Below, piece after piece: positions 8,886 to 45,876 of a stretch of DNA of 64,000 nt; the first letter of the stretch is position 1; each line of letters opens with the position of its first letter. Source of the DNA: Phymorhynchus buccinoides (taxonomy: Eukaryota > Mollusca > Gastropoda > Neogastropoda > Raphitomidae); contig CM065699.1 of assembly GCA_017654935.2 (NCBI GenBank), positions 14,233,345 through 14,297,344 on the forward strand, read 5' to 3'. The notes under the pieces are model-generated. The model was not told the origin of the DNA, ran no database searches, and was given only the letters and a program-made list of their open reading frames with translations. Both the position numbers and the translations under genes were made by a program.

Positions 8886-9211
8886 ATCGGTGACGATCCT
8901 TGGGTCTGAGATGATCTGATGATCCAACTCTATCTGGGCAGTTTGTTGAAGATGTCGGTGATGATCTCAGTGATGATCTTGGGGTCTGAGATGATCTGAT
9001 GATGTAACTCTATCTGGGCAGTTTGTTGAAGATGTCGGTGATGATCTCGGTGATGATCCTGGGGTCTGAGATGATCTGATGATCCAACTCTATCTGGGCA
9101 GTTTGTTGAAGATGTCGGTGATGATCTCGGTGATGATCCTGGGGTCTGAGATGATCTGATGATCCAACTCTATCTGGGCAGTTTGTTGAAGATGTCGGTG
9201 ACGATCTCGGT
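8886..9211 (-). repeat. 80-bp tandem repeat made from the GATB stop-codon end
   Basis: Four copies of an 80-bp unit, marked by TATCTGGGCA at 8931, 9011, 9091 and 9171. The highest-coordinate copy is the real end of GATB, coding for [14 protein letters not shown] and the stop. The three lower copies lie downstream of that stop in transcript sense and still read as near-perfect copies of the same coding end. Because 80 is not a multiple of 3, the copies cannot form one extended frame. They would sit in the 3' UTR. Confidence 0.85.
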
Positions 9212-9307
9212 GATGATCTTGGGGTCGGCCCGCCGGTCCAGTTTCAGCTGCACAGGACCCATGACTGCGTTGAGGGCTCTGCTGCCTCCCTTCTTCAGCT
9301 TCTTCAT
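9170..9307 (-). CDS. GATB: GATB last coding exon (YqeY-like C-terminus, stop)
   Basis: Residues 374-418 of the readable part. The acceptor is GTGTGCCGCAG before ATGAAGAAGC. The reading frame contains [17 protein letters not shown] and [16 protein letters not shown] and ends LPR-TAG. This aligns with the conserved end of GatB, where a 'NPRAINKLIG' block and an 'ADP..I.EIL' block close the protein. The stop-codon end is the master copy of the 80-bp array that follows. Confidence 0.92.
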   Translation of the reverse strand: MKKLKKGGSRALNAVMGPVQLKLDRRADPKIITEIVTDIFNKLPR

Positions 9308-12300
9308 CTGCGGCACACAGGCAGGCACAAATGAATGCATGGAAATAAGCAAGAAGGCACACGCACACACATAGGAAGACGCACATGTGCACAAAAGCAC
9401 ATGCAAACGTATGCTTTGATCATATGCACATACGCGCACACACACACTGACACACATTAGATATAAACAAATTAACATCAGATAAGTCACATGCGACAAT
9501 ATTGATTTGATTTACCATACTTAGACATAAACGAATTAACATAAGTCACACGTGACAATATTGATTTGATTTACCATATTTAGACATAAACGAATTAATA
9601 TAAGTCACATGTGACAATATTGATTTGATTTAACATATTTAAACATAAACAAATGAACACCAGATAAGTCGCATGTGACAATATTGATTTGATTTGCCAT
9701 ATTTAGACATAAACAAAATAACATCAGATAAGTCGCATGTGACAATATTGATTTGATTTACTATATTTAAACATAAACAAATTAACATAAGATAAGTCAC
9801 ATGTGCAGGCATCAGAATACTCCAGAGTCCAATCCGTGGACGAACAACACTCGCCATGACTCAGAGTCGACATTGAGTCGGACCCCACAAAACCAATTTC
9901 TCGCGGAAAAGTTCTCACATCATCGTAGTCTCCAGCGATCATATCCTCTAAATCAACTCATTTAAAACCCAAATCGCAATCACTGTCATCAAAACAAACT
10001 CTGAAACAGTGAAAGTAAGAGTCTAGAGAGCTCTAAACTCGGAAGAAAAAACAAACATGGCCACGATTTTTCGTTTCCGAAGGCGCAGTATGAAAACAAA
10101 CCGATTAAGAATACCATTTGAGAATAAGATTGCGCTGCCTCATGAAGTACAAACCTGCGGCCGGCAGTGCCCAAACCGCGGCCAGTGGCTACCAAAACCG
10201 CAGAAATCCGCGGACCGTTCTGATGCCTGCATGTGACAATATCGATTTGATTTACCGTATATTTCGGACTATAAGGCGATACTTTTCCCCCAAAACAAAG
10301 ATCCCTGCGCCTTATATGAAAATTAAAATACAGTGGAACCTCCCGTATAAGACCTTTAAAAATCATCCCAAATGAGGCCTTATAATGGAGGGGTCTTAAA
10401 AGGGAGGTAATTTTAATACTTACAAAGAAGGGCAATGTCTTAGAGAAGTAGGTCTTATGTGGGAGGAGGGAGTCTTAGAATGGGTGGTCTTATAAGGGAG
10501 GTTCCACTGTAGTAAAAAAACAACAATATACAAAATCTGAATTTTGTGTAAAATTTGGGTAGTGCGCCTTGATATATATACATAATAAGGTGTGCCTTAT
10601 AGTCGGAAAAATATGGTAGAATATAATATTTTTTTTGGTTGTCCACTGACCACTTTGGGCTGGGTGTCTAGGACCTCGTGAACCACCTGTTCTATCAGCT
10701 GCCGGTCGCGGATCTGACCCCAGCCCTCTCTGTCCACCACCTCCCGCCCACCCCGCTCCGGGTGGTCAAACAGCACTGACAGCACCTGCCGCAGCACAGC
10801 AAAGGTTAGCAAGTTGACGCCACAACTCGCTGCCAAAGCAGCACAGAAAATACAACAAGAACGAGTAGGTAGGTAGGTAGATAGGGACAGGCTGAAAAGC
10901 CTTAGGCCTCGCGGCCTATTAAACATCCCCTCTTTATTACATCTTTGTAAACGGTTTGATTGCATGCTTTAAATTTTGAAATTATATCACCAATTGTCAT
11001 AATCACAAAAAAGATATCTGAATTTTGGAATTGCATCCAGATGCAAATTTAGTTTGAAGGTTATTCCAATGGTTAACAACTCTTGTGAGAAAATGAAAAC
11101 TTGCATTTGTCAGTTCGGAAAAATTCAACAAAACATTTTTCACTCGGAATTCCTAGTTGTATTAAAATTAGAAACAGAGAAGAGTGTCTCAATGAGTAGC
11201 TTCTTAATGAATTCCTAGTCCATTGTTCAGTACTAATAGGCAGTTTTCTTCTTCGTGGATCGCTTAGACAAGTTTCCTGTCATATCAGCGTAGATGGATC
11301 ATACTGCCGTCATGCGCCTAAGAAATATTCAGGCCCAGCATGTCTGTCTTCAGCTGGAGAAAATCTTTGTAAAAGTTTCTTGAAAAAAGGCAGGAGAATG
11401 GAGCAGTAAGGCAGAACGATATAAAAAAACAACACCAGAAAGCGAATGGAAAAAGCAGTCAAAGAGAGCTTCAGATTAGATTAAGTTACAAGCACAGAAC
11501 TTCCGGAAGGTGGGGGTACTATTTGTATGAACATCCACCCCCTTGGTGTCCCCATGGGAGGGGGGGGGGTAGTTTTCAATGAAGAAACATCACCTTTACT
11601 AAGAACTCTGCCTCTTGATGACCTAACATAGGTTTTCTCCCCTAAGGCTGCTGGTTTCTGATTCAGCAACCTGACAAACTGGGGTATAGCAGGGCTCCCA
11701 GGGACCCCCTTTTGGTGGTCTATGAAGCACTAAGATTCTAAAGGACCCTCTAAAAGAATATGCAGGGGGTCCCAGGGATGCACTAGACAAATTCTTTTTA
11801 GCATTCGCTATGCCACTGGGACCCTCTATCCCGCCTCTAGGACCCTCTATACTGTAAGTGAAGGAGTCCCTGGGACCCCTTGTTTTGCGGGACGATTGGG
11901 AGCCCTAGTATGTCTGTGAGCTGGAATTCGGAATGAGCAGAGAGAGAGCAACGCCACTGTACGGCGCAGAAGATGGGACAGAAAAGAAAAACAAACCTGA
12001 ACAAGCTTGCACAGTATTTACATTGAACAATTGAAAATGCAACGGTAAGAAATGATCAATATTTATACTGTCTAAAATGGTTTTTTAAATGTGTTTTTTA
12101 AAACTGAGTATGCCATAAGTTTCGCTTGTCGCTGCTTCAGTTTTGTTATGGTGTACGTTCACTATTTCAAGACAATAAAATGCTTAAATCAAGAGGTCAC
12201 TCAGGTCCTCAAACACAAAATATCTGAAAGTTCCAAAAACATCTAAAATCGTTTGGTGACTGCAGTTTCAGTTTCAGTTCCCCTGCTGTTTGGAATTCCC

Positions 12301-15300
12301 TCCCAGTCGATCTCTGCCATGAACCAACTATCTCTACTTTCAAAGCTAAACTCAAGACTCACTACTTTCAAAGTTCATTCGGTTTGTAAATTTGTTCTTC
12401 TTGATCTTGCACCTGGGTGAATGATTGGGTGATAATGTTTTGTGTGACTGTGTGTGTATCCGTATAGAAAGGCGCTATAGAAGTGCTATCAATTCGTATT
12501 AGTATTATTAGATGAGTTCAATGTGTGTCCACAGATGCATGGACAGATTTTCATTCTAAGCTACATATCGTTGGTGATATTCAAAAACCTCGTATCTCAA
12601 TTTCGGTAGTTTTGAAAAAGAAAAAAAAAAATGTTTTAAAAATTAACCGTGTTGACCACAATTGATTAACTATGATGAATATGTTGTTCAAGACATTGCG
12701 AGTTCACTCCTGCATTTTGTTAACATTTCTCAAAACATTTTTTTTTTAGACTTGAAAAGAACAAAGATACGAGGATTTTGTCCTTAACTAGATCTGAATT
12801 TGGGACTTATGAGTTTTCCTTCTATTTTCACAACCTCATTTACCACAGATAGAAAGTCGTTAGAGATGCAAGCTTTTGGTGGAAGGTGGCAGGGAAAATT
12901 AGAGAGCTGTCTATGTATCTAACTCAAAACCCCCAAAAATCGAGATCTGGATCTGATCTGGAATTATATGTCGCAGACGCCACTGTATCCAAAGGTATAC
13001 GAGGTTTCTGATTTTCACCAACGATATGCTCACCTTTGTGGCCACAGCTGTGGAGATTTCTCTGGAGGATAACATGTCACACACCTCCCCCAGACAGTCT
13101 GTCCTGATGGGGCTGCACAACGCACAAAACACAGCACTGTTTTTAGAGAGTCTGTCCTGAAGCGGCTGTACAACACACAAAACACAGCACTGTTTCAGTC
13201 ACACACCTCCCCCAGACAGTCTGTCCTGATGGGGCTGCACAACACACAAAACACAGCACTGTTTCAGTCACACACCTCCCCCAGACAGTCTGTCCTGATG
13301 GGGCTGCACAACACACAAAACACAGCACTGTTTCAGTCACACACCTCCCCCAGACAGTCTGTCCTGATGGGGCTGTACAACACACAAAACACAGCACTGT
13401 TTCAGTCACACACCTCCCCCAGACAGTCTGTCCTGATGGGGCTGTACAACACACAACACACAGCACTGTTTCAGTCACACACCTCCCCCAGACAGTCTGT
13501 CCTGATGGGGCTGCACAACACACAACACACAGCACTGTTTCAGTCACACACCTCCCCCAGACAGTCTGTCCTGATGGGGCTGCACAACACACAACACACA
13601 GCACTGTTTCAGTCACACACCTCCCCCAGACAGTCTGTCCTGATGGGGCTGCACAACACACAAAAACACAGCACTGTTTCAGTCACACACCTCCCCCAGA
13701 CAGTCTGTCCTGATGGGGCTGCACAACACACAAAAACACAGCACTGTTTCAGTCACACACCTCCCCCAGACAGTCTGTCCTGATGGGGCTGCACAACACA
13801 CAAAACACAGCACTGTTTCAGTCACACACCTCCCCCAGACAGTCTGTCCTGATGGGGCTGCACAACACACAAAACACAGCACTGTTTCAGTCACACACCT
13901 CCCCCAGACAGTCTGTCCTGATGGGGCTGCACAACACACAAAAACACAGCACTGTTTCAGTCACACACCTCCCCCAGACAGTCTGTCCTGATGGGGCTGC
14001 ACAACACACAAAAACACAGCACTGTTTCAGTCACACACCTCCCCCAGACAGTCTGTCCTGATGGGGCTGCACAACACACAAAACACAGCACTGTTTCAGT
14101 CACACACCTCCCCCAGACAGTCTGTCCTGATGGGGCTGCACAACACACAAAACACAGCACTGTTTCAGTCACACACCTCCCCCAGACAGTCTGTCCTGAT
14201 GGGGCTGCACAACACACAAAACACAGCACTGTTTCAGTCACACACCTCCCCCAGACAGTCTGTCCTGATGGGGCTGCACAACACACAAAAACACAGCACT
14301 GTTTCAGTCACACACCTCCCCCACACAGTCTGTCCTGATGGGGCTGCACAACACACAAAACACAGCACTGTTTCAGTCACACACCTCCCCCAGACAGTCT
14401 GTCCTGATGGGGCTGCACAACACACAAAACACAGCACTGTTTCAGTCACACACCTCCCCCAGACAGTCTGTCCTGATGGGGCTGCACAACACACAAAACA
14501 CAGCACTGTTTCAGTCACACACCTCCCCCAGACAGTCTGTCCTGATGGGGCTGCACAACACACAAAACACAGCACTGTTTCAGTCACACACCTCCCCCAG
14601 ACAGTCTGTCCTGATGGGGCTGCACAACACACAAAAACACAGCACTGTTTCAGTCACACACCTCCCCCAGACAGTCTGTCCTGATGGGGCTGCACAACAC
14701 ACAAAAACACAGCACTGTTTCAGTCACACACCTCCCCCAGACAGTCTGTCCTGATGGGGCTGCACAACACACAAAACACAGCACTGTTTCAGTCACACAC
14801 CTCCCCCAGACAGTCTGTCCTGAAGGGGCTGTACAACACACAAAACACAGCACTGTTTCAGTCACACACCTCCCCCAGACAGTCTGTCCTGATGGGGCTG
14901 CACAACACACAAAAACACAGCACTGTTTCAGTCACACACCTCCCCCAGACAGTCTGTCCTGATGGGGCTGCACAACACACAAAAACACAGCACTGTTTCA
15001 GTCACACACCTCCCCCAGACAGTCTGTCCTGATGGGGCTGCACAACACACAAAAACACAGCACTGTTTCAGTCACACACCTCCCCCAGACAGTCTGTTCT
15101 GATGGGGATGTACAACACACAAAACACAGCACTGTTTCAGTCACACACCTCCCCCAGACAGTCTGTCCTGATGGGGCTGCACAACACACAACACACAGCA
15201 CTGTTTCAGTCACACACCTCCCCCAGACAGTCTGTCCTGATGGGGCTGCACAACACACAAAAACACAGCACTGTTTCAGTCACACACCTCCCCCAGACAG

Positions 15301-18300
15301 TCTGTCCTGATGGGGCTGCACAACACACAAAAACACAGCACTGTTTCAGTCACACACCTCCCCCAGACAGTCTGTCCTGATGGGGCTGCACAACACACAA
15401 AAACACAGCACTGTTTCAGTCACACACCTCCCCCAGACAGTCTGTCCTGATGGGGCTGCACAACACACAAAACACAGCACTGTTTCAGTCACACACCTCC
15501 CCCAGACAGTCTGTCCTGATGGGGCTGCACAACACACAAAAACACAGCACTGTTTCAGTCACACACCTCCCCCAGACAGTCTGTCCTGATGGGGCTGCAC
15601 AACACACAAAACACAGCACTGTTTCAGTCACACACCTCCCCCAGACAGTCTGTCCTGATGGGGCTGCACAACACACAAAAACACAGCACTGTTTCAGTCA
15701 CACACCTCCCCCAGACAGTCTGTCCTGATGGGGCTGCACAACACACAAAACACAGCACTGTTTCAGTCACACACCTCCCCCAGACAGTCTGTCCTGATGG
15801 GGCTGCACAACACACAAAAACACAGCACTGTTTCAGTCACACACCTCCCCCAGACAGTCTGTCCTGATGGGGCTGCACAACACACAAAAACACAGCACTG
15901 TTTCAGTCACACACCTCCCCCAGACAGTCTGTCCTGATGGGGCTGCACAACACACAAAACACAGCACTGTTTCAGTCACACACCTCCCCCAGACAGTCTG
16001 TCCTGATGGGGCTGCACAACACACAACACACAGCACTGTTTCAGTCACACACCTCCCCCAGACAGTCTGTCCTGATGGGGCTGCACAACACACAAAAACA
16101 CAGCACTGTTTCAGTCACACACCTCCCCCAGACAGTCTGTCCTGATGGGGCTGCACAACACACAAACACACAGCACTGTTTCAGTCACACACCTCCCCCA
16201 GACAGTCTGTCCTGATGGGGCTGTACAACACACAACACACAGCACTGTTTCAGTCACACACCTCCCCCAGACAGTCTGTCCTGATGGGGCTGTACAACAC
16301 ACAAAACACAGCACTGTTTCAGTCACACACCTCCCCCAGACAGTCTGTCCTGATGGGGCTGCACAACACACAAAACACAGCACTGTTTCAGTCACACACC
16401 TCCCCCAGACAGTCTGTCCTGATGGGGCTGCACAACACACAAAAACACAGCACTGTTTCAGTCACACACCTCCCCCAGACAGTCTGTCCTGATGGGGCTG
16501 CACAACACACAAAACACAGCACTGTTTCAGTCACACACCTCCTCCCCCAGACAGTCTGTCCTGATGGGGCTGCACAACACACAACACACAGCACTGTTTC
16601 AGTCACACACCTCCCCCAGACAGTCTGTCCTGATGGGGCTGCACAACACACAACACACAGCACTGTTTCAGTCACACACCTCCCCCAGACAGTCTGTCCT
16701 GATGGGGCTGCACAACACACAACACACAGCACTGTTTCAGTCACACACCTCCTCCCCCAGACAGTCTGTCCTGATGGGGCTGCACAACACACAACACACA
16801 GCACTGTGTCATTCTTCATCTTTCTGTATTGGTAATATGTACTGTCCTCTTACATCCCTCTGCTGAACTTATTCTTTACTCTGTGTGCCATATTTTTCGT
16901 ATTACAAGGCAATACTTTTTTTCCCCAGACTAAACATGAATAATAACATAGTAACAAATAAAAAATAAATAAAAAATCTGAATTTTGTGTAAAACATTTG
17001 GGGGTGCACCTCAAACAAGGCTGTTGTGCTGTGACAAAACCATATACACTCACACTCATAGCAGGTATTTGGATCGAAACTTAACTTTATTAAAAAGCAA
17101 AAATATGAGCAAAAACAAGCAAAGCTTTCACAGCTCAGGACTCTCTCTGATTTTGTGTCTGTCTCTCTAAAGATTTAATGTAATTATCTCTCTCTGTCTC
17201 TCTCTCTCTGTCTATAAGCCGCGCTTCTGAGCAGGTGTATGTGTGTGTGTTGTGTGTGTGAGTGTGTTGTGTGTGTTCTGTGTGGGTATATGTGCTTGCA
17301 TGTGTATGAGTGCATGTGTGCGCAGGAGAGATTGTGTTTGGCTAGAGAGAGTGGGGGAGTGTGTGTGTACGAGTATGTGTGTGAGTGTGAGTGCACATGT
17401 GTGTTTTGTGTATGTGAGTGCGCGTGTGTTTGTGTGTGTGTGTGCGTGCGCGCGTGTTTGTACAAGTGCATGTTTGTGCAAGTGTGTGTGCCATTGTGAG
17501 AATGTGCTTTCTGTGTGATTGATGAAATGTGTGTGGGTCTGTGTGTGTATGTCTGTGTGCAAGAACGCGTTCACTCACGTGCGTGCACGTACGTGCGTGT
17601 GTGTCTGTTGTGCGTGTGCGAGTGTTTCAATGCTGATTGTAAAGCGCTTTGTGCTTGATAAAAAGCGCAATATAAGTGTCAATTTATTATTATTCTCTCT
17701 CTCTCTCTCTCTCTCCCTTTCTATCTGTCTCTGTCTCTCTCTCTCATTCTCCTTTCCTCTTTACTCCCCATTCCCCTCCTTTTCTTCTTATCTTTCTTTT
17801 CTTTTCTTATTTTTTGTTTTGTTCCCAGATGCCCACTTATTTTCGGTCCCTCCACATCCCATTTGTTAAGTATTTATGTATAATGCTGAATTTATTATGT
17901 GTCTGTTTATATTGATAATGTGCCTGCTTATGATGATAACGTGTGTTCGTTTTCTTTGCTTTGCATGTCTTTCTTGTTTATTGAATTCTTTGCTTTTGAT
18001 TTTTATTTCCTTTCTCTTTTTTTTTTCTTGAGGGCTGGATGAAAAAAAGTATTTATACTTACTCTATTATCCTCAGAAAATAAAAGTTATTCATTCATTC
18101 ATTCATTCTCTATTCAGTGAGTGACTCACCAGTCAGCAGCGGTGCAGTCGCGTTCACGCAGCACCCCTAGGAACTCATTGAGCAGCAGATTGAGCACTGG
18201 TTTCACCTCCCGGCTGCCCCCCTTCACCAGCGACTCAAAAACACCCAGCATCCCTTCCTCTGTCTGAAGAATACAACGCAAAATGGGCATGAATGCATGC

Positions 18301-21300
18301 ACATGCACATGCACACACACACACACGCACACGCACACACGCACACGCACACACACACACACAAACTCATTCAGAGCAAACGCATGCTCGCATGTACACA
18401 TGTCAGGCATGGGAATTGTCAGAGACAAAAAACTCTGAAAAGCCCCCCCTCATTTTTACAGCGTTAAAATATAATAATATCATAAAAATTGAAGTATTTA
18501 GTAGCTAAAACTTTTCCCTAAAAAAAAACAATTCCGCAGAAATCTGCGGACAATTCCCATGCTGACATGTGTGCGTGGGTGCACACACACATATGTGCAA
18601 TCACACACATATACATATGCACACACACACACTCATTCAGAGCAAACGCATGCCCGCATGTACATATGTGTGCGCGGACGCACACACACATGCTTGCAAG
18701 CACACACAAAATACATATGCACACACACACACTAGAAAACACACGCACACATACACCATGTGCCCATATTCACATCACACATATCGCATTTGTCGGACTA
18801 TAAGGCGATACTTTTTCCCCCAGACTCGGACCCTAAAACAGTAAGAAAATATTATAACAAAATCTGAAATTTGGTTAAAAATTTGAGTTGGTGTGCCTTA
18901 TACAAAGGTGCGCCTTATAGTCCGATAAATATGGTAAACACTCGCACACAATTTAGTGGAAGGACGTTAAACTGAAGAACAACACACACACATGAACACA
19001 CTCACCCCACAAAAACAACAATATACAGTATTTATACGGCGCTGAATCTCGATAGAAATCAAATCAAAGCGCACACACACGTTAGCATTCATAACGCATT
19101 CAAACAAAAACGCAATACAAAGCGAACACACACGGATGACATAAATGGAATATAGCAGAAACAGACCTAATGGCAAGAGAGAGAAGAGAAAGAGAGCAGA
19201 GCTTTACTGACGGGGGAACAGGTGGGTTTTGAGGTTAGCTTTGAAAGCAAAGAGGGTCAGTCGCTGACGGAGGGAGAGAGGAAGTTTGTTCCAGGTCGGT
19301 CCTGAGAACCCCACCCCTACACCAGACCTGTTTATCCCTATTTTGCAAAGTTGTAATTTCTGAAACAAAAAACCCGTAATTTTGAACAAAAAACTGTAAT
19401 CCAACGCGTGACCAATGAACGTCGATATCGTACTGACCTGAGTGTGCAATACTAATGTCCGTCGAGCAGTAGACACAGAACACATGCTCATCACATAGTG
19501 CTGAACGACGTATTCCTGGAATTTTGAGGTAACTTTCCCGGAATTTCTGTGCCACTTTTGATGTCTTTTCTTTGGATTTTCGACCAGAAGATACAGAAGC
19601 TTCAGAATGCACTCGCTTGGACGCCATTTAGAAACAGAAAAGGAAATGGCGTGAAATGACTTTTCACCGCATCGTTTGAAAAGCTTCGCTTACCAACGCA
19701 ACTGTAGTTTTTTTCATTTTATATTTAGGAGAAAAAAAATCCTGTATTTTTTTCCGTAGCCGTAATTTGACTCCCCCCCTGTAAAACTTACGGCAATATC
19801 GGGATGGTAAACAGGTCCGCCAACACTCAACCCCCCCATGCACACACACACATTGATTTGGAATAATCAATTCACATTCAATGCTAAAAAATTACAACAT
19901 GCGATATTACGAAGAATGCAAAACTGTTACATATCATTTTGGAAACTAAAAAAGGGAGAAGTATCACGGCTCAGGTTTTATAATGATGTTACTAAAGAAT
20001 ATCGAATAGAACCGTACCTTTTTAGTACTATTTTGGATAGACAACAAAAACAGGCTCTATGTAAATTGAGAATTAGTGCTCATAATTTAAAAATCGAAAT
20101 TGGTAGACACGAGAATATTGTAAGAGAAAACAGACTTTGCCAAAAATGTCATGAAATAGAAGATGAGCTCCACCTTTTGAATACCTGCGTTATGTATAAA
20201 GAAGATCGTTACAAATTGATGGAAAATGTAGACAAACAAAGTTTAGAATCAAATGTTCAGTCTCCATCAGATATAATGATGTTAGATGAACTACAGCCAT
20301 TTGTGGCAAAATATGTTAGTATTTGTTTTAACAAAAAGCATGAATAGTATTTTGCGTTGTTTGTAATCTTAACCTGTGCCTTATAAGCCTTTGTTTAGGT
20401 TTCATTGCAATAAACCAATGTTCAAATGTTCAAATGTTCACACCCCACAAACACTCACCACCAGCAGTGAAGCAGGGAGAAGAGGGACGCCATACTGTTG
20501 CTGCACTCTGGCACGGACCTGTCCAGGCAGTTCAGGAAGACGCCCGGCCACGTCCTCCAGGACTACTCCACTGGCAAGGAAGGGGGTGTCCTGGGCCCGC
20601 TGCTGCTGCCGACAGCTGTACACATGCAGGGGGGGCAGGTTGGGCTCCGGCATGAAGCGGTAGTCCTGGAGCTTCTCCTTGTCTCGCATCTGCACCGTTT
20701 CACTGGACATCATCATCATTAAATCATCGTTATTAAATCAGCGTCATCACTGTCGCCATCACTGATCATTAGCATCATTTCTGTCGTTATCATTATTATT
20801 GTTATCGCTGCCGTCATTGTTATCATTACCATGGGTCTGCATGAATGAAGTGTGTGCGGATTAGATGGGAGGAGGGGAATGGGGCATGTAGTAACTGAGT
20901 TTGTTTGTTAGTGTGCGCGTGTTTGTGCACGTGCGCATATGTTTGTGTGTGTTTGTGTGCGCTAATGTGAGTTTGCTTGTGTGTGGGGAGGGAAGGATAT
21001 GTTTTGTGCATAGCAATGTGTATATATGCGTGTGCATGTCTGTATATCTATGAGTATGCTCTGCGTGGGGAATGCGAGCGCGTCTGAGTATGTTTGATAT
21101 GTATGATGTAATCTTGCATGTGGAGTGAATTTTAGTTTTGTTAAGCGCCATGAGTAGTTTGTCTAGAATGTGCGCTCTATAAATGTCTTTATTATTATTA
21201 CCATCATCATTTTCATCTTCATTACATCATCATCGTTATCATCGTACTCATCATTGTCATTATCGTCATCGTCATCGTTGTCATTATAATCACCATCCAT

Positions 21301-30211: not shown

Positions 30212-30259
<48 letters not shown>

Positions 30260-30726: not shown

Positions 30727-30763
<37 letters not shown>

Positions 30764-30919
30764 TGCATTTTCCCATCACAGGTGCCCAGAGTCTTCAGTA
30801 GCAGCTGTAGCTCCCTCAACACACACACACACACACACCACACACACACCTTGCCATTTCCCATCACAGGTGCCCAGAGTCTTCAGTAGCAGCTGTAGCT
30901 CCCTCACACACACAACAAC

Positions 30920-30955
<36 letters not shown>

Positions 30956-31072
30956 CAATAAAGATGATTTTGACTTGACTTGACTGACACACACACACAC
31001 ACACCTTGCATTTTCCCATCACAGGTGCCCAGAGTCTTCAGTAGCAGCGGTAGCTCCTCAACACACACACAA

Positions 31073-31111
<39 letters not shown>

Positions 31112-31643
31112 CAATAAAGATGATTTTGACTTGACTTGACTGACATACACAAACACACACACACCTTGCATTTTCCCATCACAGGTGCCCAGAGTCTTCA
31201 GCAGCAGCTGTAGCTCCCTCAACACACACACACACACACACACACCTTGCATTTTCCCATCACAAGTGCCCAGAGTCTTCAGTAGCAGCTGTAGCTCCCT
31301 CAACACACACACACACACACACACCTTGCATTTTCCCATCACAGGTGCCCAGAGTCTTCAGTAGCAGCTGTAGCTCCCTCACAAAGCAGGCCGCGTCCTC
31401 CCCGCTCTGCAGGTCAGGCTGAGTCACCAGCTCCATCAGTCCAATGCCTGAACCCATCACAGCAGCATCAACCATTTCAGTGCTTTGGGGTTTTTTGGCT
31501 TGCCAAAGTCCCATCCATTTATACAATGTACATTTAACCCCTTTCCCTGCCCAGTCGGTGTCTACTACCTGATGAATTATATCAATGATGATGTCATAAC
31601 TTTTGATGTCATAAACCTGGAATTTGTTTTTACTTACAATACG

Positions 31644-32092: not shown

Positions 32093-33527
32093 ACTAATCT
32101 TTTCTCCCCCTTCATATCCGGACTACTGAGTGTCCACCTCCCTATGAAGACCCCTCCCTATTAAGACCTTTTGGGGGCTGATTTTTCAAGGTCTTAATCA
32201 GGTGTAGAGTGGCACAGTGGTAGCGCGTTCACTTCGTGTCAAGTAAACCCGAGTTCGAACCTGGGTACAGGGGATTTTTCCTCTCACTCTGCACTAGGCC
32301 GTACGGTCTGAATGTGGAGTCTTTCGGATGAGATGATAAAACCGTGGTCCCATGCACTTAGCACATGTTAAAACCCAGTGGCAACGAAAAAGTTGTCATT
32401 TGGTCAAAATTTACCCCCCGCCTCCCCCCCCCAGACCTGTTTTACCCTATTTTGCAAAGTTGTAATGTTTCTGAAACAAAAAACTGTAATTTTGAGGGAA
32501 AAAAACTGTAATCCAACGCGTGACCAATGAACGTCGATATCGTACTGACCCGAGTGTGCAAACTTTACTGCAATACTAAATGTCCGTCGAGCAGTAGACA
32601 CAGAACACATGCTCGTCACCTAGTGCTGAACGACGTATTCCTGGAATTTTTAGGTCACTTTCCCAGAATTTCTGTGCCATTTAAGTGACTTTTGATGTCT
32701 TTTCTTTAGATTTTCGACCAGAAGATACAGAAGCTTCGGAATGCACTCGCTTGGACGCCATTTGAAACAGAAACGGAAATGGCACGAAATGACTTTTCAC
32801 CGCATCGTTTCGTTTTTTTGTAATATTTAGGATTTTATTTTCTTGTATTTTTTTTTCGTAGCCGTAATTTGACTTTTCCCCCGTAAAAATTACAGCAAAA
32901 ATCGTAAAGGTAAACAGGCCTGCCCCCCCCCCCCCCCACCTAATCAGTCACACAAAAATCGCATGCCCAAAAAAAATATTGGGTGGCGCGCCTCTGGCTG
33001 GGACGCACTCTCCAGGTGGGAGCAAACCGAATTTCCCAGAGACGCCTCTGTGACAATAAAGTACCTAATACCAGGCATGGTAGAGGGGGCAAAGTGGTTT
33101 TCAAGGAAAATGGCCGGGGGTCCAGGGGGCCGAAGAAAATTCAATAAAATTCAATAAATGAGTGAAATTTTTCACTTTTTCATGCTATTTCAATGCATTT
33201 TTTAATAATTTTGTTTCAAACTGTTTCGCGGATTTTCCGCGATTCACGGAGGTCTTCCATGCCTGTAAAACCTAATGGGAGCTTCCACTGTAAGAGAAAC
33301 GTTTCAATCCACATCCATTCACCTGCCCTGTTGAGGTCGATGAGGCTGCGGTGGCCGTGGAGGTCGTGCAGGGACTTGCCGCTGTCCTGCTCCAGTTGAA
33401 CCTGGATCAGCTGGCAGGTGCGAGCCTCAGCCCGCACCTGCTCCCCCGCCCGCAGCCGCACATGGACAAAGTCCAGCTGACCCCCCCGGGCCAGGGGCTG
33501 CCTCTGCTGGGTGATCTGATACCCTGC
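9170..33527 (-). CDS. GATB: GATB, mitochondrial glutamyl-tRNA(Gln) amidotransferase subunit B (nine exons, N-terminus missing)
   Basis: Join of minus exons 33323-33527, 31325-31447, 29022-29135, 22406-22490, 20459-20702, 18130-18263, 13034-13112, 10651-10785 and 9170-9307. Total 1257 nt, 418 codons plus TAG, with every splice phase agreeing. In the GatCAB complex of mitochondria, GatB activates Glu-tRNA(Gln) and receives ammonia from GatA, so that Gln-tRNA(Gln) is made without a glutaminyl-tRNA synthetase. Recognisable blocks in order are [71 protein letters not shown] and a C-terminal YqeY-like helical domain ending in FNKLPR. Animal GatB is about 550 residues, so about 130 N-terminal residues are not in these exons. 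Several introns hold satellites built from the gene's own exons. Confidence 0.93.
9466..9805. repeat. tandem repeat of ~60 bp in GATB intron
   Basis: About five to six units of roughly 55-65 bp, each containing GACAATATTGATTTGATTTA followed by TAGACATAAAC. A single further fragment of the unit follows the hAT-like element at 10230, so that element inserted into the array. Confidence 0.85.
9806..10229. mobile_element. hAT-like MITE (CAGGCATCAGAA termini)
   Basis: It begins CAGGCATCAGAA and ends TTCTGATGCCTG. It is flanked by CATGTG on both sides (9800-9805 and 10230-10235), compatible with a degraded 8-bp target duplication. It splits the 60-bp tandem array, whose sequence continues on the right. 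No transposase frame is visible. Confidence 0.7.
10253..10618. mobile_element. MITE-B, split by a nested MITE-A
   Basis: The left end reads ACCGTATATTTCGGACTATA and the right end ATAGTCGGAAAAATATGGTA, which is its inverted repeat. MITE-A (10331-10509) sits inside it. Related copies: about 18784-18936 (complete), 22753-23287 (longer), about 16887-17010 and 45475-45600 (truncated). The right end stops 32 bp from the donor side of a GATB exon. Confidence 0.75.
10331..10509. mobile_element. MITE-A nested in MITE-B
   Basis: Complete 179-bp copy with CAGTGGAACC and GGTTCCACTG ends and TA flanks, lying inside the inverted repeats of MITE-B. MITE-A activity at this site is therefore younger than the MITE-B insertion. 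Confidence 0.8.
10651..10785 (-). CDS. GATB: GATB exon (YqeY-like domain)
   Basis: Exactly 45 codons, phase 0 at both ends. The acceptor is TGCTGCGGCAG before GTGCTGTCAG, and the donor follows AAAGTG as GTCAGT. It reads [13 protein letters not shown], then [15 protein letters not shown]. This corresponds to the GatB segment after 'SSSAAKQ', up to the 'HPQVV' block. Confidence 0.92.
10860..11235 (-). pseudogene. decayed LINE tail
   Basis: The minus strand shows [16 protein letters not shown], the conserved 'F..RVVN.WN.LP' block near the end of many LINE ORF2 proteins. It is followed by a 3' tail with AGGCCTAAGG and a short TACC repeat. The fragment is truncated and very degenerate. Confidence 0.55.
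11245..11580 (+). repeat. dispersed repeat family X, copy 1
   Basis: About 330 bp shared with 28225-28545 (inverted) and 48430-48740 (same orientation). Shared landmarks are GACAAGTTTCCTGTCAT, AGGCAGGAGAATGG and GCACAGAACTTCCGGAAGG, followed by a C/G-rich end with CCCCATGGG. No coding signal was recognised. It could be a SINE or a LINE 3' end. Confidence 0.65.
11690..11907. mobile_element. MITE-G (CAGGGCTCCCA termini)
   Basis: The left end CAGGGCTCCCAGGG is mirrored by TTGGGAGCCCTAG at the right. The inner sequence repeats GGACCCTCT motifs in both orientations. A diverged second copy lies at about 36305-36520. The CAGGG start suggests a hAT-type element, but no target duplication is clear. 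Confidence 0.6.
12262..12515 (+). pseudogene. LINE ORF2 C-terminal end and 3' tail
   Basis: The plus strand reads [14 protein letters not shown] and then [12 protein letters not shown], followed by a stop. This is the typical end of an L2/CR1-like ORF2. Downstream is the 'GGCGCTATAGAAGTGC...ATTATTA' tail, a motif that also ends other retroposons in this window. Confidence 0.7.
12568..13024. mobile_element. MITE-C, inserted 7 nt after a GATB splice donor
   Basis: The left terminus TCGTTGGTGATATTC and right terminus TTTTCACCAACGA are inverted repeats, and TA flanks both. In GATB sense the element's TA duplication begins directly after GTGAGCA of the donor at 13033, so only seven intronic bases separate exon and insertion. 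A partial copy lies at 7551-7956. Confidence 0.75.
13034..13112 (-). CDS. GATB: GATB exon, master copy of the 70-bp satellite
   Basis: 79 nt. It enters in phase 2 (one base completes the Cys codon opened by the preceding exon) and ends after AAG, before GTGAGC. It codes for [20 protein letters not shown] and then TAVATK, equivalent to the GatB block '[20 protein letters not shown]'. The first 37 nt and the acceptor TTGTGCAG are the sequence that has been amplified upstream. Confidence 0.9.
13080..16815 (-). repeat. 70-bp satellite: GATB 3' splice site plus first 37 nt of exon, ~53 copies
   Basis: Tandem units of 69-70 bp, with 3-bp insertions in units near 16.54 and 16.75 kb. In GATB sense each unit contains a TG-rich tract, TTGTGCAG, the exon start CCCCATCAGGACAGACTGTC and on to GTGTGAC, then TGAAACAGTGCTGTG. 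The true exon is the last unit in transcript order. Units differ mainly in AAAAC/AAAAAC/ACAC length and in a few substitutions, so they are highly homogenised. Every unit's exon-like part runs into an immediate in-frame TGA after GAC when read in the exon's phase. Plus- and minus-strand frames across the array are repeat artefacts. Confidence 0.92.
16887..17010. mobile_element. MITE-B remnant
   Basis: CCATATTTTTCGTATTACAA and a following AATACTTTTTTTCCCC match the left half of MITE-B. The right half is missing. Confidence 0.45.
17215..17700 (+). mobile_element. retroposon R copy with TG-rich body and 'AAGCGCTTTG' tail
   Basis: A TG-rich body contains GTGTGCAAGAACGCGTTCAC and ends with GATTGTAAAGCGCTTTGTGC, then AAAAAGCGC and an ATTATTATT tail. 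The same order is found at about 35920-36200, 42131-42547 (plus) and 49843-50095 (minus). This is probably a SINE-like retroposon whose body has been invaded by microsatellite growth. A CT-rich tract follows at 17693-17760. Confidence 0.6.
18130..18263 (-). CDS. GATB: GATB exon (helical domain)
   Basis: 134 nt: 44 codons and two bases. The acceptor is TTCTTCAG before ACAGAGGAAG, and the donor is GTGAGTC after GACTG. It codes for [15 protein letters not shown] and [17 protein letters not shown], matching 'NEVGLLEFFQNVI' and 'VLNTFLGYLKQQN' of animal GatB. An AATG-type short repeat starts about 15 bp after the donor. Confidence 0.92.
18404..18564. mobile_element. short hAT-like MITE (CAGGCATGGGAATTGTC termini)
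   Basis: The ends CAGGCATGGGAATTGTC and GACAATTCCCATGCTG are inverted repeats. ACATGT flanks both sides. The flanking 'CATTCAGAGCAAACGCATG' block occurs on both sides (about 18369 and 18635), so a larger local duplication is also present. Confidence 0.65.
18784..18936. mobile_element. MITE-B copy
   Basis: Left end TTGTCGGACTATAAGGCGAT, right end CGCCTTATAGTCCGATAAAT followed by ATGGTA, together an inverted repeat. It is 153 bp with no nested insertion. Confidence 0.7.
19204..19322 (-). pseudogene. LINE ORF2 C-terminal fragment
   Basis: The minus strand reads [15 protein letters not shown] and ends [18 protein letters not shown], a typical last segment of a non-LTR ORF2. Its upstream side is replaced by the hAT-like element at 19323. 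Confidence 0.65.
19323..19819 (-). mobile_element. hAT-like element with BED-type zinc-finger ORF remnant
   Basis: It begins CAGACCTGTTTATCCC and ends GGTAAACAGGTCCG, an inverted repeat. On the minus strand an open frame starts [15 protein letters not shown] and contains [20 protein letters not shown], a C-x2-C plus His arrangement like the BED finger at the N-terminus of hAT transposases. The transposase core is missing, so this is an internal-deletion derivative that kept the first exon. A second copy lies at 32432-32922. Confidence 0.7.
19855..20440 (+). pseudogene. LINE ORF2 C-terminus with zinc-knuckle-like motif and AAATGTTC tail
   Basis: A plus-strand frame (to stop at about 20346) contains [20 protein letters not shown] and [19 protein letters not shown] followed by NTC. 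This is the C-x2-C...H...C region at the end of L1/Tx1-like ORF2 proteins. The 3' end is a short tandem repeat of AAATGTTC, whose last unit stops about 20 bp from the GATB donor at 20458. The 5' part is absent. Confidence 0.8.
20459..20702 (-). CDS. GATB: GATB exon (core domain, MPEPNLPPL motif)
   Basis: 244 nt: one base plus 81 codons. The acceptor is taken at TGTCCAG before TGAAACGGTG, because the resulting phase 2 matches the preceding exon (AA plus T). It codes for [20 protein letters not shown] and NLPPLHVYS, then [17 protein letters not shown], all diagnostic of GatB. An alternative acceptor GTGCAG eight codon-frame bases further on would break the phase. The donor is GTGAGT after CTGCTGGTG. 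Confidence 0.92.
21160..21430. repeat. ATC/CAT-rich low-complexity block
   Basis: Interrupted ATC and CAT triplets (also 20700-20830). Minus-strand Asp-rich and Met-rich frames here are artefacts of the repeat. The part from 20830 to 21160 is TG-rich, with a retroposon-like 'TAAGCGCCATGAG...ATTATTATT' tail. Confidence 0.7.
21482..21645. mobile_element. MITE-A copy
   Basis: 164 bp, CAGTGGAACCTCC to GGTTCCACTG, with TA flanks. Confidence 0.8.
22406..22490 (-). CDS. GATB: GATB short exon
   Basis: 85 nt, not obvious as a long open frame but fixed by phase. The acceptor TTCATTTCAG precedes ATTTTGAGAT, and its AT joins the G of the previous exon to make Asp. The donor AA-GTGAGA joins the T of the next exon. 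It codes for [20 protein letters not shown], equivalent to '[20 protein letters not shown]' of animal GatB. A CA/TG microsatellite begins about 20 bp downstream. Confidence 0.9.
22574..22749. mobile_element. MITE-A copy
   Basis: 176 bp with TA flanks, 84 bp upstream of a GATB acceptor and immediately adjacent to the MITE-B copy at 22753. Confidence 0.8.
22753..23287. mobile_element. MITE-B, long version
   Basis: The left end TACCATAATTGTCGGATT and right end GGTCCGAAAAATACAGTGA resemble the MITE-B inverted repeats, with about 500 bp of interior not seen in the short copies. It could be closer to the parental element, but no transposase frame is visible. Confidence 0.5.
23288..23890. other. 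intronic DNA, nothing coding recognised
   Basis: Contains a retroposon-like tail (ATGCGCTATATAAGCATTAT, then ATT repeats near 23370) and AT-rich sequence. Inside the GATB intron. Confidence 0.4.
23895..27735 (-). repeat. 52-55-bp satellite, ~70 copies, acceptor-like motif in each unit
   Basis: Units have the shared core AGGGTTCCTTGATTCAA, then (CA)GTCT(A/T)GCTGTCC and (TTCTG)ACAA. Two main length classes differ by CA in 'CAACAGTC' versus 'CAAGTC'. A recurrent short form lacks TTCTG. In GATB sense each unit reads TTTCTTCTTTTTGTTGTCAG, a good polypyrimidine tract with AG, then AAGGACAGC. No match to a GATB exon was found. Long minus frames here are repeat artefacts. Confidence 0.92.
27780..28200 (-). 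mobile_element. diverged SINE-like copy
   Basis: On the minus strand it shares the 'CATGCACTT..GCGCACGTTAA' region and the following AAAAGTTATTATTTTG region with the SINE at 28635. The 5' tRNA-like head is not recognisable. The left part has a TTGGTA repeat at 27798-27822. Confidence 0.45.
28225..28545 (-). repeat. dispersed repeat family X, copy 2 (inverted)
   Basis: Inverted relative to 11245-11580. It carries GGAAGTTCTGTGCTTGTAGC, CCATTCTCCTGCCTTTTT and GTGACAGGAAACTGTCTGAG. Confidence 0.65.
28635..29010 (+). mobile_element. tRNA-derived SINE, near full length
   Basis: The head resembles a tRNA gene: an A-box-like TGGCACAGAGGTAACGC at about 28643 and a B-box GAGTTCGAACCTGGG at 28684-28698, then a body with GCACTAGGCCTTATGG, GATGAGACGATAAACC and CCATGCACTTAGC. 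The 3' end lies about 11 bp from a GATB donor (29021). Other copies: 32202-33070 (split), 41549-41849, 54590-54955 (minus), 59838-60222 (minus). The sequence itself is not transcribable as a true tRNA. Confidence 0.8.
29022..29135 (-). CDS. GATB: GATB exon with the EVKNLNS motif
   Basis: 114 nt. The acceptor is TCTTCATAG before AGGGTTCTTT, and AG completes a Glu codon. It codes for [19 protein letters not shown] and [18 protein letters not shown], the most conserved GatB signature. The donor is GTGAGC. The SINE at 28635-29010 ends just beyond the donor. Confidence 0.95.
29325..29440. mobile_element. TTAA-flanked 116-bp palindromic MITE
   Basis: TTAA at 29321-29324 and 29441-29444. Termini AGACCCACCAC and GTGGGTGGGGGGTCT. 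piggyBac-type flanks. Confidence 0.65.
29468..29841. mobile_element. TA-flanked MITE (GGGCATTTGCC termini)
   Basis: GGGCATTTGCC at the left and GGCAAATGCCC at the right, TA on both sides, with inner inverted copies of ACTCTTGCGAAAGG-type motifs. Confidence 0.65.
30138..31324 (-). repeat. array of GATB exon tails plus donor, interleaved with (CA)n
   Basis: Eleven copies of about 56 nt of the following GATB exon's 3' end (GAGCTACAGCTGCTACTGAA ... AAAATGCAAG), each running into GTGTGTGTG as its donor side and separated by CA/TG microsatellite. Copies begin on the plus strand near 30141, 30267, 30344, 30467, 30573, 30670, 30760, 30850, 31005, 31164 and 31245. The true exon is at 31325. Those closest to it are nearly identical, while the distal ones carry indels. 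Two spacers contain the same retroposon 3' end (30954-30988, 31108-31142). Confidence 0.92.
31325..31447 (-). CDS. GATB: GATB exon, master copy of the CA-interleaved array
   Basis: 123 nt. The acceptor GATGGGTTCAG precedes GCATTGGACT, and GC completes the Gly codon of NRAG. It codes for [19 protein letters not shown] and [20 protein letters not shown], equivalent to '[20 protein letters not shown]' and 'VRELQLILQALG'. The donor GTGTGTGT is the start of the microsatellite, so the splice site has no independent intronic context. Confidence 0.93.
31646..31684. repeat. (CA)n microsatellite
   Basis: A pure CA tract. 31450-31645 and 31685-32130 hold no recognised coding sequence. About 31530-31640 resembles the TTAA-type element at 38728. 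Confidence 0.85.
32202..33070 (+). mobile_element. SINE copy interrupted by a hAT-like element
   Basis: The head with GTAGAGTGGCACAGTGGTAG and TTCGAACCTGGG runs to about 32410. The 3' part resumes at about 32936 (CAGTCACACAAAAATCGCAT to GTGACAATAAAGTACC). The interruption is the element at 32432-32922, as judged from the uninterrupted SINE copy at 59838-60222. Confidence 0.75.
32432..32922 (-). mobile_element. hAT-like element, second copy, nested in SINE
   Basis: CAGACCTGTTTTACCC to GGTAAACAGGCCTG, 491 bp, colinear with 19323-19819. The BED-like frame is broken by small insertions, so this copy is more decayed. Confidence 0.7.
33072..33265. mobile_element. hAT-like MITE (CAGGCATGG termini)
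   Basis: Begins CAGGCATGGTAGA and ends TCTTCCATGCCTG, directly after the 3' end of the SINE. Confidence 0.55.
33323..33527 (-). CDS. GATB: GATB exon (first confidently readable)
   Basis: 205 nt, phase 0 in and phase 1 out. The acceptor is CCTGTCCAG before GCAGGGTATC. It codes for [16 protein letters not shown] and [16 protein letters not shown], then SLIDLNRAG, matching '[13 protein letters not shown]', '[13 protein letters not shown]' and 'LIDLNRAG' of GatB. MITE-A starts only 33 bp upstream of the acceptor, so the branch point must lie in 33 bp or inside the MITE. The preceding exon should end in '..HYFYADLP'. Confidence 0.93.
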
Positions 33528-33560
33528 CTGGACAGGGACAGCTTCAGTGGGTAGGGAGTA

Positions 33561-33705
33561 CAGTAGAACCTCCCTTACAAGACTCCCTCCCTATAAGACC
33601 TTGCCCTTCTTTGTAAGTATTAAAATTACCTCCCTTGTAAGACCCCTCCCTTATAAGACCCCATTTTGCGTGATTTTTGAAGGTCTTATAAGGGAAGTTC
33701 CACTG
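33561..33705. mobile_element. MITE-A copy upstream of a GATB acceptor
   Basis: 145 bp from CAGTAGAACC (one mismatch to the consensus end) to GTTCCACTG with TA flanks, 33 bp from the exon. Confidence 0.75.
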
Positions 33706-33724
33706 TACCAAAGTAGTAGCACAA

Positions 33725-34600
33725 CAAAATAGTACAGGTATGACAGCATAGAAGTACTGTAGTGTTTGTGGTCGAACACAGACATACACACACAACATGA
33801 TCATATTCATCATCATCACCATCATCACCACCCTCATCATCAACATCAACATTGTCATCATCATCATCACCACTATCCATCAGAAGTCATCAACATCATG
33901 GTCATCATCAACATGGTCATCATCAATCATCATCGTCAACATCATCATCACCACATCATGATCATGTCATCATCACCATACATCACCACCACCATAAAAC
34001 ATCAACCATCACCCATCATCGTCTCATCATGTCATCATCATTAATCATCATCATCAACACATTGTGCGTGTAATCATCACCATTATCATCAACATTGTCA
34101 TCATCATCAGCAGCAAAGACCTACGGGCATAATCATCGTAGAAGTAGTGTTTGCGGTCAATCTATGACACCGTCATCATCGTCGTCAGCCGAGGGCCAGA
34201 TCAGTCATCACCCCATCATCCACACAGGCCCTGTTCATCAGCTGATCCCAGGTCATTCGTAGTAAGTTTACATGGGTGCAACTCCCCAAAATAAAAAAAA
34301 ACCCTGAAAGGCAGGGATCCAATGACTCATTGCCCTGGCAGGGTACAGGGACAGATCCACATCGTATTATTCAGGGGGGCAACATAATCATCGTCATCAT
34401 CATCAGACAGACAGACCGTTCTCATGATATAGACAAAGACAGTACGAGTCTGATAAACCTCGTAGAAGTAGTGCATTGCCTTTGTCAACTTCCAAGTTAG
34501 AACACCGGGTTGATGTTCAAAACGCCCAAAAGGGCCAGTGGTCAATTTTTTTTGTTTTGGATGCATTAAAGAAGCCTCCAGTTCAGGCCCTGGAAAAATA
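33725..34600 (-). pseudogene. GATB: three corrupted copies of a GATB N-terminal exon in ATC-rich DNA
   Basis: The exon before AGYQIT should read like 'NRRCVEAAVMTGLAL...FDRKHYFYADLP'. Copy B (about 34245-34130) gives MNRACVDDGVMTDLALG and, in another frame, DRKHYFYDD, with stops between. Copy A (about 33775-33725) gives FDHKHY and YFYAVIP separated by a 5-nt insertion, followed by GTACTA at the donor position. Copy C (about 34600-34440) has a strong acceptor TTTTTCCAG, then LEASLM, LALL and AMHYFYE in different frames. None is intact, so the functional exon must be elsewhere, possibly in the gap at 35279. Confidence 0.65.
33790..34115. repeat. (ATC)n-rich block
   Basis: Interrupted ATC/CAT triplets in the midst of the exon copies. 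Frames of poly-His, poly-Ser or poly-Ile are artefacts. Confidence 0.85.
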
Positions 34601-35278: not shown

Positions 35279-35778
35279 NNNNNNNNNNNNNNNNNNNNNN
35301 NNNNNNNNNNNNNNNNNNNNNNNNNNNNNNNNNNNNNNNNNNNNNNNNNNNNNNNNNNNNNNNNNNNNNNNNNNNNNNNNNNNNNNNNNNNNNNNNNNNN
35401 NNNNNNNNNNNNNNNNNNNNNNNNNNNNNNNNNNNNNNNNNNNNNNNNNNNNNNNNNNNNNNNNNNNNNNNNNNNNNNNNNNNNNNNNNNNNNNNNNNNN
35501 NNNNNNNNNNNNNNNNNNNNNNNNNNNNNNNNNNNNNNNNNNNNNNNNNNNNNNNNNNNNNNNNNNNNNNNNNNNNNNNNNNNNNNNNNNNNNNNNNNNN
35601 NNNNNNNNNNNNNNNNNNNNNNNNNNNNNNNNNNNNNNNNNNNNNNNNNNNNNNNNNNNNNNNNNNNNNNNNNNNNNNNNNNNNNNNNNNNNNNNNNNNN
35701 NNNNNNNNNNNNNNNNNNNNNNNNNNNNNNNNNNNNNNNNNNNNNNNNNNNNNNNNNNNNNNNNNNNNNNNNNNNNNN
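35279..35778. other. assembly gap, exactly 500 N
   Basis: Placeholder gap next to a MITE-E copy. The missing 5' exons of GATB would be expected on this side. Confidence 1.
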
Positions 35779-38634: not shown

Positions 38635-38727
38635 CAACAAAAATTGATTTATTTTTAAGATTAAAACTAAAAGCACCCATAGATTTTTTTTAACCCTCCC
38701 TTCCCTTGCCCCCCCATTTGCTAATGA

Positions 38728-39786: not shown

Positions 39787-39830
<44 letters not shown>

Positions 39831-41849: not shown

Positions 41850-41924
41850 ATGTGACGCAAATCTAATGATCAAAATTTGGTGTCATGGCGATCATCAAAT
41901 CCACTCTCCCACTCTATCCTTGGA

Positions 41925-43904: not shown

Positions 43905-43976
43905 TAACATAATATTAGTTAACTACTTACATAATTATGGTGCCAATTTTGACTAGCCCAGTGATGATGATAATGG

Positions 43977-44011
<35 letters not shown>

Positions 44012-44612
44012 GTGATGAAGATGATGAGTTTACCTAAGTTAAAGACATATTTTTCACAGCACAAATACTACTAGTTCATGACCTACCCATGCCGATTTCG
44101 ACGAGTCCAGTGATGATGATGATGATGATGATGCTGAGGAGGAGGAGGAGGAGGAGGAGGAAGGACCGACGATGATGAGCTTACTTTAATTAAGACATTT
44201 TTTCACAGCACAAACATATTGAACAGGGAAAGGGGTAGACGCAACTTGCCAGCAGTCTACAACTCCCTTATTCAGTCGCACGTCGTGAGTTCATCTCACC
44301 GACGTGTTGACTGAATACCAAGTTTCCAACCTCAGTGTTCAAGCGCTGACGAAGCCGGACGGGCGACTGGCGAAAGCTATGCGTGAGTAGTAATACTTCA
44401 ACTGAGAGAAAGTGTTAAAAAATCTTCATTAAACACTATTTAATTTTAGTTCATCACCTACCCATGCCGATTTTGATGAGTCCAATGATGATGATGGTTG
44501 AGGCGATGAAGGAGATGATGATGATGATGACGACGATGAGTTTACTTTACTTTAAGTCAAAGACATTTTTTCACAGCACAAACACTATTAGTTCATGACC
44601 TACCAAAGCCGA

Positions 44613-44648
<36 letters not shown>

Positions 44649-45410
44649 CAATAACGACGATGAGTTTACTTTAGATAAAGACATTTTTTTCACAGCACAA
44701 ACACTACATTGTATTAGTGAAATAAATAAGGGGTAGGAACTTCTCATAAATTAACTCCCTTGTTTTTACCAAAGTTATTTATGGCACCGATTCGCCTGCA
44801 AAGTGAAAGTAGTTGCCACAACAATACAGACCCAAGTTCATCCTTACAAAAAGGATGACCCAGAACCTGCCTTATTATGACAACCACCCACACACAGTAC
44901 ACAACAACAGTGGTGGGAGAGAGTTGCTCACAAACAAATCAACATACATTCAAGAATGGCATAGCCTTCTAGTCTTGAATAATGTTACACTTAAACAACA
45001 CACAACAAGGAACAAACCGGTATGCCTCGATGGAAGTAGGGTTAAGCAATTATGAAATATAGTGAGGCTAAGAGAGAGGATATAACCAAAAAAGTGAAAT
45101 GAATAAGGGGTAGGAACTTCTCGTAAATTAACTCCCTTGTTTTACCAAAGTTATTTATGGCACCGATTCGCCTAGCAAAGTGAAAGTAGTTGCCACAACA
45201 ATACAGACCCAAGCGATGACCCAGGATGTATTGTTGTGGCAACTACTTTCACTTTACAGGCGAATCAGTGCCATAAATAACTTTGGTAAAACAAGGGAGT
45301 TAATTTACGAGAAGTTCCTACCCCTTATTTACTTCACTATATCTTCTCTCTTACTCTTAGCCTCACTACATGTATTAGTTCATGACCTACCCATGCCGAT
45401 TTTGATGATG
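43905..45410 (-). repeat. partial-exon tandem array next to SLC7A exon
   Basis: Five degenerate copies of the tail of the exon at 45751-45876, at about 43937-43990, 44082-44130, 44460-44500, 44602-44640 and 45386-45420. In gene sense each gives a run of Ile codons (ATC/ATT), usually TGLV.IG or IKIG, then GGG-GTAGGTCATGAACTA as donor side. They are followed by a shared intron piece containing TGTTTGTGCTGTGAAAAAAT. The ATC runs have expanded into GATGAT/GAGGAG tracts. Confidence 0.75.
44708..45350. repeat. near-perfect palindrome plus half-copy within the SLC7A array
   Basis: Arms of roughly 140 bp at about 45060-45205 and 45215-45352 are inverted copies (AGGGGTAGGAACTTCTCGTA, CAAAGTTATTTATGGCACCG, AGTAGTTGCCACAACAATAC). 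A third copy of one arm is at about 44708-44830. Confidence 0.8.
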
Positions 45411-45750
45411 ATGATGGCGATTATGACAATCACAACGATAAATTTAGTTGATTTTTTCACAGCACAAACACAATTACCGTATTTTCCGGACTACAAAGCG
45501 CACCGTTGTCTAAGCCTCACACCCCTGAATTTTATTAAAATTCTGGAAAAACAACAACGATAAAGCCGCATTCAGTGTCTAGGCCGCAAGAGACTGAAAA
45601 AGAAAAACGAACCTGAGAAGACGAGCAGACGAGCTCGTGATCGAAAGTCACGGCAACTTCGACGGCCCGTGTTCTTCTTCTTCTTCTTCTTCGCAGTACG
45701 TGGCCACAATCAACACACTGATTATTATGGTAGTTCATATCATGACGTAC

Positions 45751-45876
45751 CCCTGGCGATTCTGACGAGTCCAGTGATGATGATGATGATGAGGGCAAAC
45801 ACCTTGGTGCAGGTGAAGATGTCTTGAACCCGTGTGGCCCATTTCACGTTGGTGCAGTTGATAAACGTTAACAGAG
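45751..45876 (-). CDS. SLC7A-family (LAT-type) amino-acid transporter, single exon
   Basis: 126 nt with acceptor TTTATGTGCAG before CTCTGTTAAC and donor GTACGT after CCAGGG. It codes for [20 protein letters not shown] and then [20 protein letters not shown] plus RG. This corresponds to 'LLTAVNCYSVKAATRVQDAF...LLALALIILLGFVQIGKG' of LAT1-type light subunits: the loop and transmembrane helix between membrane segments 5 and 6. Such carriers exchange neutral or cationic amino acids at the plasma membrane with an SLC3 partner. Phases are 1 in and 1 out. No other exon of the gene was found within 10 kb on either side. The helix contains five consecutive ATC codons, a coding microsatellite. Confidence 0.85.

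Follow-up and report, generated by a model that had tools for sequence, protein, structure and literature searches.

Tandem arrays at the exon edges of a GATB gene resemble the mirages of amphioxus

A 64,000-nucleotide (nt) stretch of DNA (the window; position 1 is its first letter) contains a gene for glutamyl-tRNA(Gln) amidotransferase subunit B (GATB) and a neighboring SLC7A-like exon. Directly beside several true exons lie tandem arrays whose units hold part of the adjoining exon together with its acceptor (exon Eg), donor (exon Eb) or stop codon (exon Ei), as the original prediction stated. This observation is real and striking and largely holds as it was described. We conclude, with a probability of roughly 80%, that the arrays are mirages, that is, intragenic minisatellites whose founding unit by chance lay across an exon edge. 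They would be another example of a kind already known, accounted for by the ordinary model of minisatellite birth. The GATB and SLC7A features are all on the minus strand, and the GATB gene runs from ~34 to 9 kb. Nine GATB exons (Ea-Ei) were placed with open frames; eight of them, joined by eye, give a protein that matches GatB chains in the PDB (best E=5.6e-55), and Ed was found later. That the host is an animal is suggested by this exon-intron structure and by the transporter family of the SLC7A exon.

The array at Eg carries the acceptor. Exon Eg (13034-13112) has its true acceptor at its start, and upstream of it (13113-16811) lie ~53 copies of a 69/70-nt unit that includes the acceptor and the first 37 nt of the exon. 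Tandem Repeats Finder (TRF) places 52.8 copies of a 69-nt unit at 13145-16811. The motif GTTGTnCAG occurs 53 times in the array. The last occurrence is the true acceptor and the remaining 52, all with CAG, are decoys; one additional unit is without its AG. Neighboring sites are spaced by 69 or 70 nt in 48 of 52 intervals, with 12 interval types altogether. The first 37 nt of the true exon are matched identically in 47 of the 52 decoys; on the intron side, the true copy is 3-5 edits from each of the 52. The unit nearest the exon is deviant: it is 53 nt long, compared to 69/70, and has the highest mismatch count of the 52 when compared without gaps. The exon at 13.1 kb had been thought to meet a TG-rich acceptor tract. 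Instead, the unit junction joins exonic GTGTGTGAC to TGAAACAG and not to the TG tract. The unit has the motif TGAC in common with the outer flank, whose last letters are ATGAC.

The array at Eb carries the donor. Exon Eb (31325-31447) ends in the true donor CAAG/GTGTGT and is followed, in the intron, by 11 decoy copies (30140-31324) of its last ~55 nt, the donor and a (GT)n run. Counting the true one, there are 12 copies of the exon end, and AAG/GT is retained in 10 of the 11 decoys. The decoys have 1-18 changed nt relative to the true copy, and divergence increases weakly with distance from the exon (Spearman 0.55, P=0.08). Length changes occur in the exonic part of three of the 11, one of them a net frameshift. 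The predicted edge of this exon, at 31.3 kb, against an intronic (TG)n was confirmed, with exonic TTTGTG adjoining the intronic GT run. Two spacers in the array (30952-30987 and 31108-31145) contain an identical inserted piece, CAATAAAGATGATTTTGACTTGACTTGACTGA, and this insertion was therefore probably duplicated together with the unit.

The array at Ei carries the stop codon. Exon Ei (9170-9307) is the last GATB coding exon and has the stop codon at its end. An 80-nt array (8887-9226; 4.2 copies by TRF) starts inside the last 57 nt of this exon, and its units consist of the last codons, the stop codon and the start of the 3' untranslated region (3'UTR). The four copies detected with blastn are 94.6-98.3% identical.

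The proposed independent origin of the arrays stands: because unit lengths and edges differ and no full unit is found elsewhere in the window, the arrays were most likely born separately. Compared with the whole window, the Eg unit gave 55 matches within its own array and 0 outside, and the Eb unit gave 12 and 0. The full exon-level search for Eb gave 122 matches, 102 of them outside the array. Three of these 102 reach more than 5 nt into the exon, by way of its TG-rich donor end, and no unit copy is among them. For the Ei unit there is one weak extra match (34 nt, 79%), in a GAT-rich stretch at 33812. A transposon origin of the units was rejected, as nowhere else in the window does any array have a full copy of its unit.

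Two further cases are degenerate. The SLC7A-like exon (45751-45876; LAT / y+LAT family) has the donor GTACGT, and its best PDB match is y+LAT1 (E=2.7e-12). Five older, degenerate copies of its donor edge lie at 43930-45445. They begin in ATC runs, are irregularly spaced and do not appear as a single array in the TRF output; four of the five keep the splice signal, as GTAGGT versus GTACGT in the true exon. The SLC7A unit has one extra match in the window, at the extreme edge of its own cluster. The second case is a GAT-rich stretch (33700-34560) that holds what is left of a GATB exon with a broken frame (VMTDLAL...DRKHYFY), in which VMTDLAL and DRKHYFYDD are in different frames. Pieces of 15 and 21 nt from the DRKHYFY-coding end recur nearby, with scores of 12.5 and 16 versus a maximum of 10.5 in 273 control stretches. 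No intact counterpart of this remnant lies within the window. The original prediction counted four such places in GATB and one in SLC7A. Ei, Eg, Eb and, in degenerate form, SLC7A bear this out, and 33.7-34.6 kb contributes just broken pieces; the count of four holds only with that stretch included because there is no intact exon there.

The layout of the arrays is consistent with ordinary minisatellite birth at short direct repeats. The founding breakpoints share 5 nt at Ei, 5 nt at Eg and 4 nt at Eb. For random pairs 60-100 nt apart, the probability of sharing at least 4 nt is 0.037, and of at least 5 nt, 0.020. This sharing of 4-5 nt at the junctions is at most suggestive of birth at short direct repeats. 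We suspect that each array started from a segment of ~70-150 nt that reached from exon into intron (or from the coding end into the 3'UTR). This segment would first have been doubled between short sequences partly in common, namely runs of TG or ATC, or 4-5 nt (for example TGAC or GACCC). Later amplification would have occurred by slippage or by unequal exchange or gene conversion. The array could then persist on the non-coding side of the exon, while the outermost true exon copy would be held intact by selection and the decoy splice sites would probably be mostly passive and skipped. In all four places where the exon is intact (Ei, Eg, Eb and SLC7A), the array lies on its non-coding side, which is presumably what selection would demand. 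The mechanism of birth, survival by selection, and normal splicing are inferred.

Two models for the birth of minisatellites have been published, slipped-strand mispairing and birth between flanking direct repeats (Taylor and Breden 2000; Haber and Louis 1998; as summarized in PMC3389668). The arrays resemble what these models describe in the short sequence that seems to be shared at unit edges and in the shortened exon-proximal unit at Eg. Unlike the flanking-repeat model as given there, which has repeats of 5-10 nt, the shared runs here are 4-5 nt. The microhomology-driven birth that had been proposed for these arrays agrees with the junctions, but it is the published general model for minisatellites and no special process. 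TG or ATC repeats had been assigned to three array edges; we see them at Eb, as (TG)n, and at SLC7A, as ATC runs, but not at Eg.

Several points weigh against this account of the arrays. The breakpoints at Ei, Eg and Eb were set by eye. The outer edge of the Ei array could be a decayed terminal unit instead of founding homology, and there is no splice junction within the Ei unit. At the Eg junction, four extra nt (TGAA) are unexplained. Lastly, the identity of the 37 exonic nt at Eg, together with the divergent intron side, means that expansion from a single founder is insufficient alone.

The structure had been taken to belong to no named class, but it already has a name. In amphioxus, tandem units over an intron-exon boundary are called mirages and occur in two globin genes, BflGb6 and BflGb9 (PMC3087553); the same report cites earlier ones for Adh3 and other loci. 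Amphioxus mirages are reported there to have units of 10 to 160 bp, to occur at both exon edges and to differ in copy number between two haplotypes. Their boundary units escape homogenization, and reverse transcription PCR suggests regular splicing. Similar imperfect repeats are described in lancelet PGBD5, with troponin C cited (PMC3902484). As in these mirages, GATB and SLC7A units extend over the intron-exon boundary at either edge: at Eg the unit crosses the acceptor, and at Eb and SLC7A it crosses the donor. The arrays at Ei, Eg and Eb are intragenic and minisatellite-like, and the SLC7A copies are irregular. AG or GT is kept in many repeats (52 at Eg, 10 of 11 at Eb, and four of five at SLC7A). 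The deviant 53-nt unit at Eg resembles the cluster boundaries in amphioxus. The Ei array is a sibling case that falls outside the strict definition of a mirage. Unlike the amphioxus examples, with 6 and 3 copies (BflGb6) and one duplicate (BflGb9), there are up to 53 copies here. There are also several arrays within one gene, one of them on the side of the stop codon and 3'UTR. Our literature search, limited by its coverage and by the terms used, found no report of the name mirage beyond amphioxus. If the host is not amphioxus, then the phenomenon is wider than the papers we found describe.

New introns could also arise from arrays at exon edges. One report (PMC2812944) states that, in humans, introns may be formed by variable tandem repeats located at exon-intron boundaries. 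The arrays here resemble those repeats, and intron gain by tandem genomic duplication, in having tandem copies with splice sites. Unlike in intron gain, no new intron is evident here, and the copies are in existing introns or the 3'UTR. In introns, tandem repeats are reported to be enriched near intron-exon junctions, especially in two green algae (PMC3887541).

Not every array in the gene contains part of an exon. The largest array in the window (23901-27732) is intronic and separates Ec from Ed. It consists of ~72 copies of a 54-nt unit with a higher-order period of 268 nt, and this unit matches its own array alone. A 64-nt array (9457-9805; 5.6 copies) lies in the intron between Eh and Ei, and its unit has one match beyond its own array, a 31-nt intronic piece at 10230-10260, and no match to an exon. 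Since this piece is the sole outside match, the two arrays were ruled out as hidden copies of exons, and they serve as internal controls. We defined a clear array as one with a unit of at least 20 nt, at least 3 copies and a TRF score of at least 250, a choice of our own. There are five in the gene span: three on an exon border or stop codon and two exon-free. A shared process in this one locus, beyond ordinary minisatellite birth, was part of the original prediction; it is not shown, given that exon sequence is absent from two of the five.

A different explanation is that minisatellites in this genome are born preferentially at exon borders. Breaks and template switching might, for example, be promoted by pre-mRNA splicing or by R-loops where GC-richer exons adjoin TG-rich or GAT-rich introns. 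When founder units were placed randomly, the probability of at least three of five on an exon border or stop codon was 0.0001 (window) and 0.0006 (gene span). With a two-copy 100-nt array (47701-47895) included as a sixth, and with gaps excluded and exon borders corrected, it was 0.0002 (window) and 0.0012 (gene span). In addition, the two degenerate cases, SLC7A and 33.7-34.6 kb, lie in the same 37 kb. However, for splice junctions alone (at least two of five), the founder placement gave P=0.004-0.012, and when whole-length arrays were placed randomly, P=0.09-0.23; in the five-array and junction-only calculations, the borders of Ed and SLC7A were off by up to 4 nt and gaps were included. The enrichment at exon borders is thus nominally significant under the founder null and not under the whole-array null, and the founder null is the better question concerning birth. 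All of these P values are post hoc, and the window was picked because of its exon-edge arrays. With two of the arrays exon-free as well, we think a general preference for exon borders unlikely.

We are similarly doubtful of an extended form of this idea, in which birth is preferred at borders and homogenization also reaches the coding edge, so that the array and the first codons would co-evolve by gene conversion. It arises because most Eg decoys are identical to the exon over 37 nt despite the edits on the intron side. By such a route, sequence from a non-coding array might come to replace coding sequence.

The arrays might instead be functional, if the tandemly duplicated exon ends act as alternative exons or provide alternative splice sites. 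The retention of AG or GT in 52 Eg units, 10 of 11 Eb units and four of five SLC7A copies is consistent with such a role. In addition, AG/GTGTGT lies inside the exonic part of each common Eg unit type and of the true exon (the 53-nt boundary unit is without it), making a 28-nt mini-exon conceivable. However, when the decoy Eg acceptors are read in the frame of the true exon, 51 of 52 run into an in-frame TGA within 22 codons, and we rejected functional alternative exons on this ground. The length changes in three of the 11 Eb decoys, with one net frameshift, also argue against function, as do the amphioxus mirages, in which splicing is apparently undisturbed (PMC3087553). We consider a function of this kind very improbable. 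Use of a decoy at Eg should truncate the protein, and the gene should therefore work only if the true sites win. A conserved housekeeping exon with dozens of near-perfect decoys next to it makes a natural test case for the way the spliceosome chooses its sites.

It is also highly unlikely that the arrays, which we read as mirages, are an artefact of assembly, produced by false tandem duplication or misjoined reads. The window has three runs of exactly 500 N (7051-7550, 35279-35778 and 56001-56500), which are probably assembly gaps of unknown true length, and the copy number of the arrays is uncertain. However, the units differ from one another, with the 12 interval types among 52 intervals at Eg and the 1-18 changed nt in the Eb decoys. 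The three clear exon-edge arrays have distinct flanks and are more than 1 kb from any gap; for this distance we rejected a gap artefact.

The remaining GATB exons are without such arrays. Ea (33323-33527), Ec (29022-29135), Ee (20459-20702), Ef (18130-18263) and Eh (10650-10785) have no exon-derived array among the matches listed, and Ed (22406-22490; borders by eye, +/- a few nt) is without an adjoining array. A local search for N-terminal GATB exons with a GATB protein gave only the broken piece at 34.2 kb. The corresponding search with an SLC7A protein yielded a single convincing exon (E 2e-13), and its other rows were weak (best E 0.08). The lone SLC7A exon may be a relic or part of a gene with very long introns, and the gap at 35279-35778, or DNA beyond the window, may hold the absent GATB and SLC7A exons. 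On the minus strand between 34.2 and 63.8 kb, Pfam scans with stops written as X gave no family; this blank carries little weight because the same scans missed the SLC7A exon too. Neither Rfam (at gathering scores) nor a tRNA scan gave a match in the window.

Elements resembling miniature inverted-repeat transposable elements, with inverted ends ACAGTGGAACCTCCCTTATAAG, are at 28-363, 10330-10510, 21481-21646, 22573-22750 and 33560-33706. The ends have 11 matches with at most 3 mismatches, where none is expected by chance, and the element at 33560-33706 is 33 nt from exon Ea. Broken open frames at 6302-6970 and 46521-47020 resemble, as an impression from their translations, remnants of a reverse transcriptase of long interspersed nuclear elements (LINEs).

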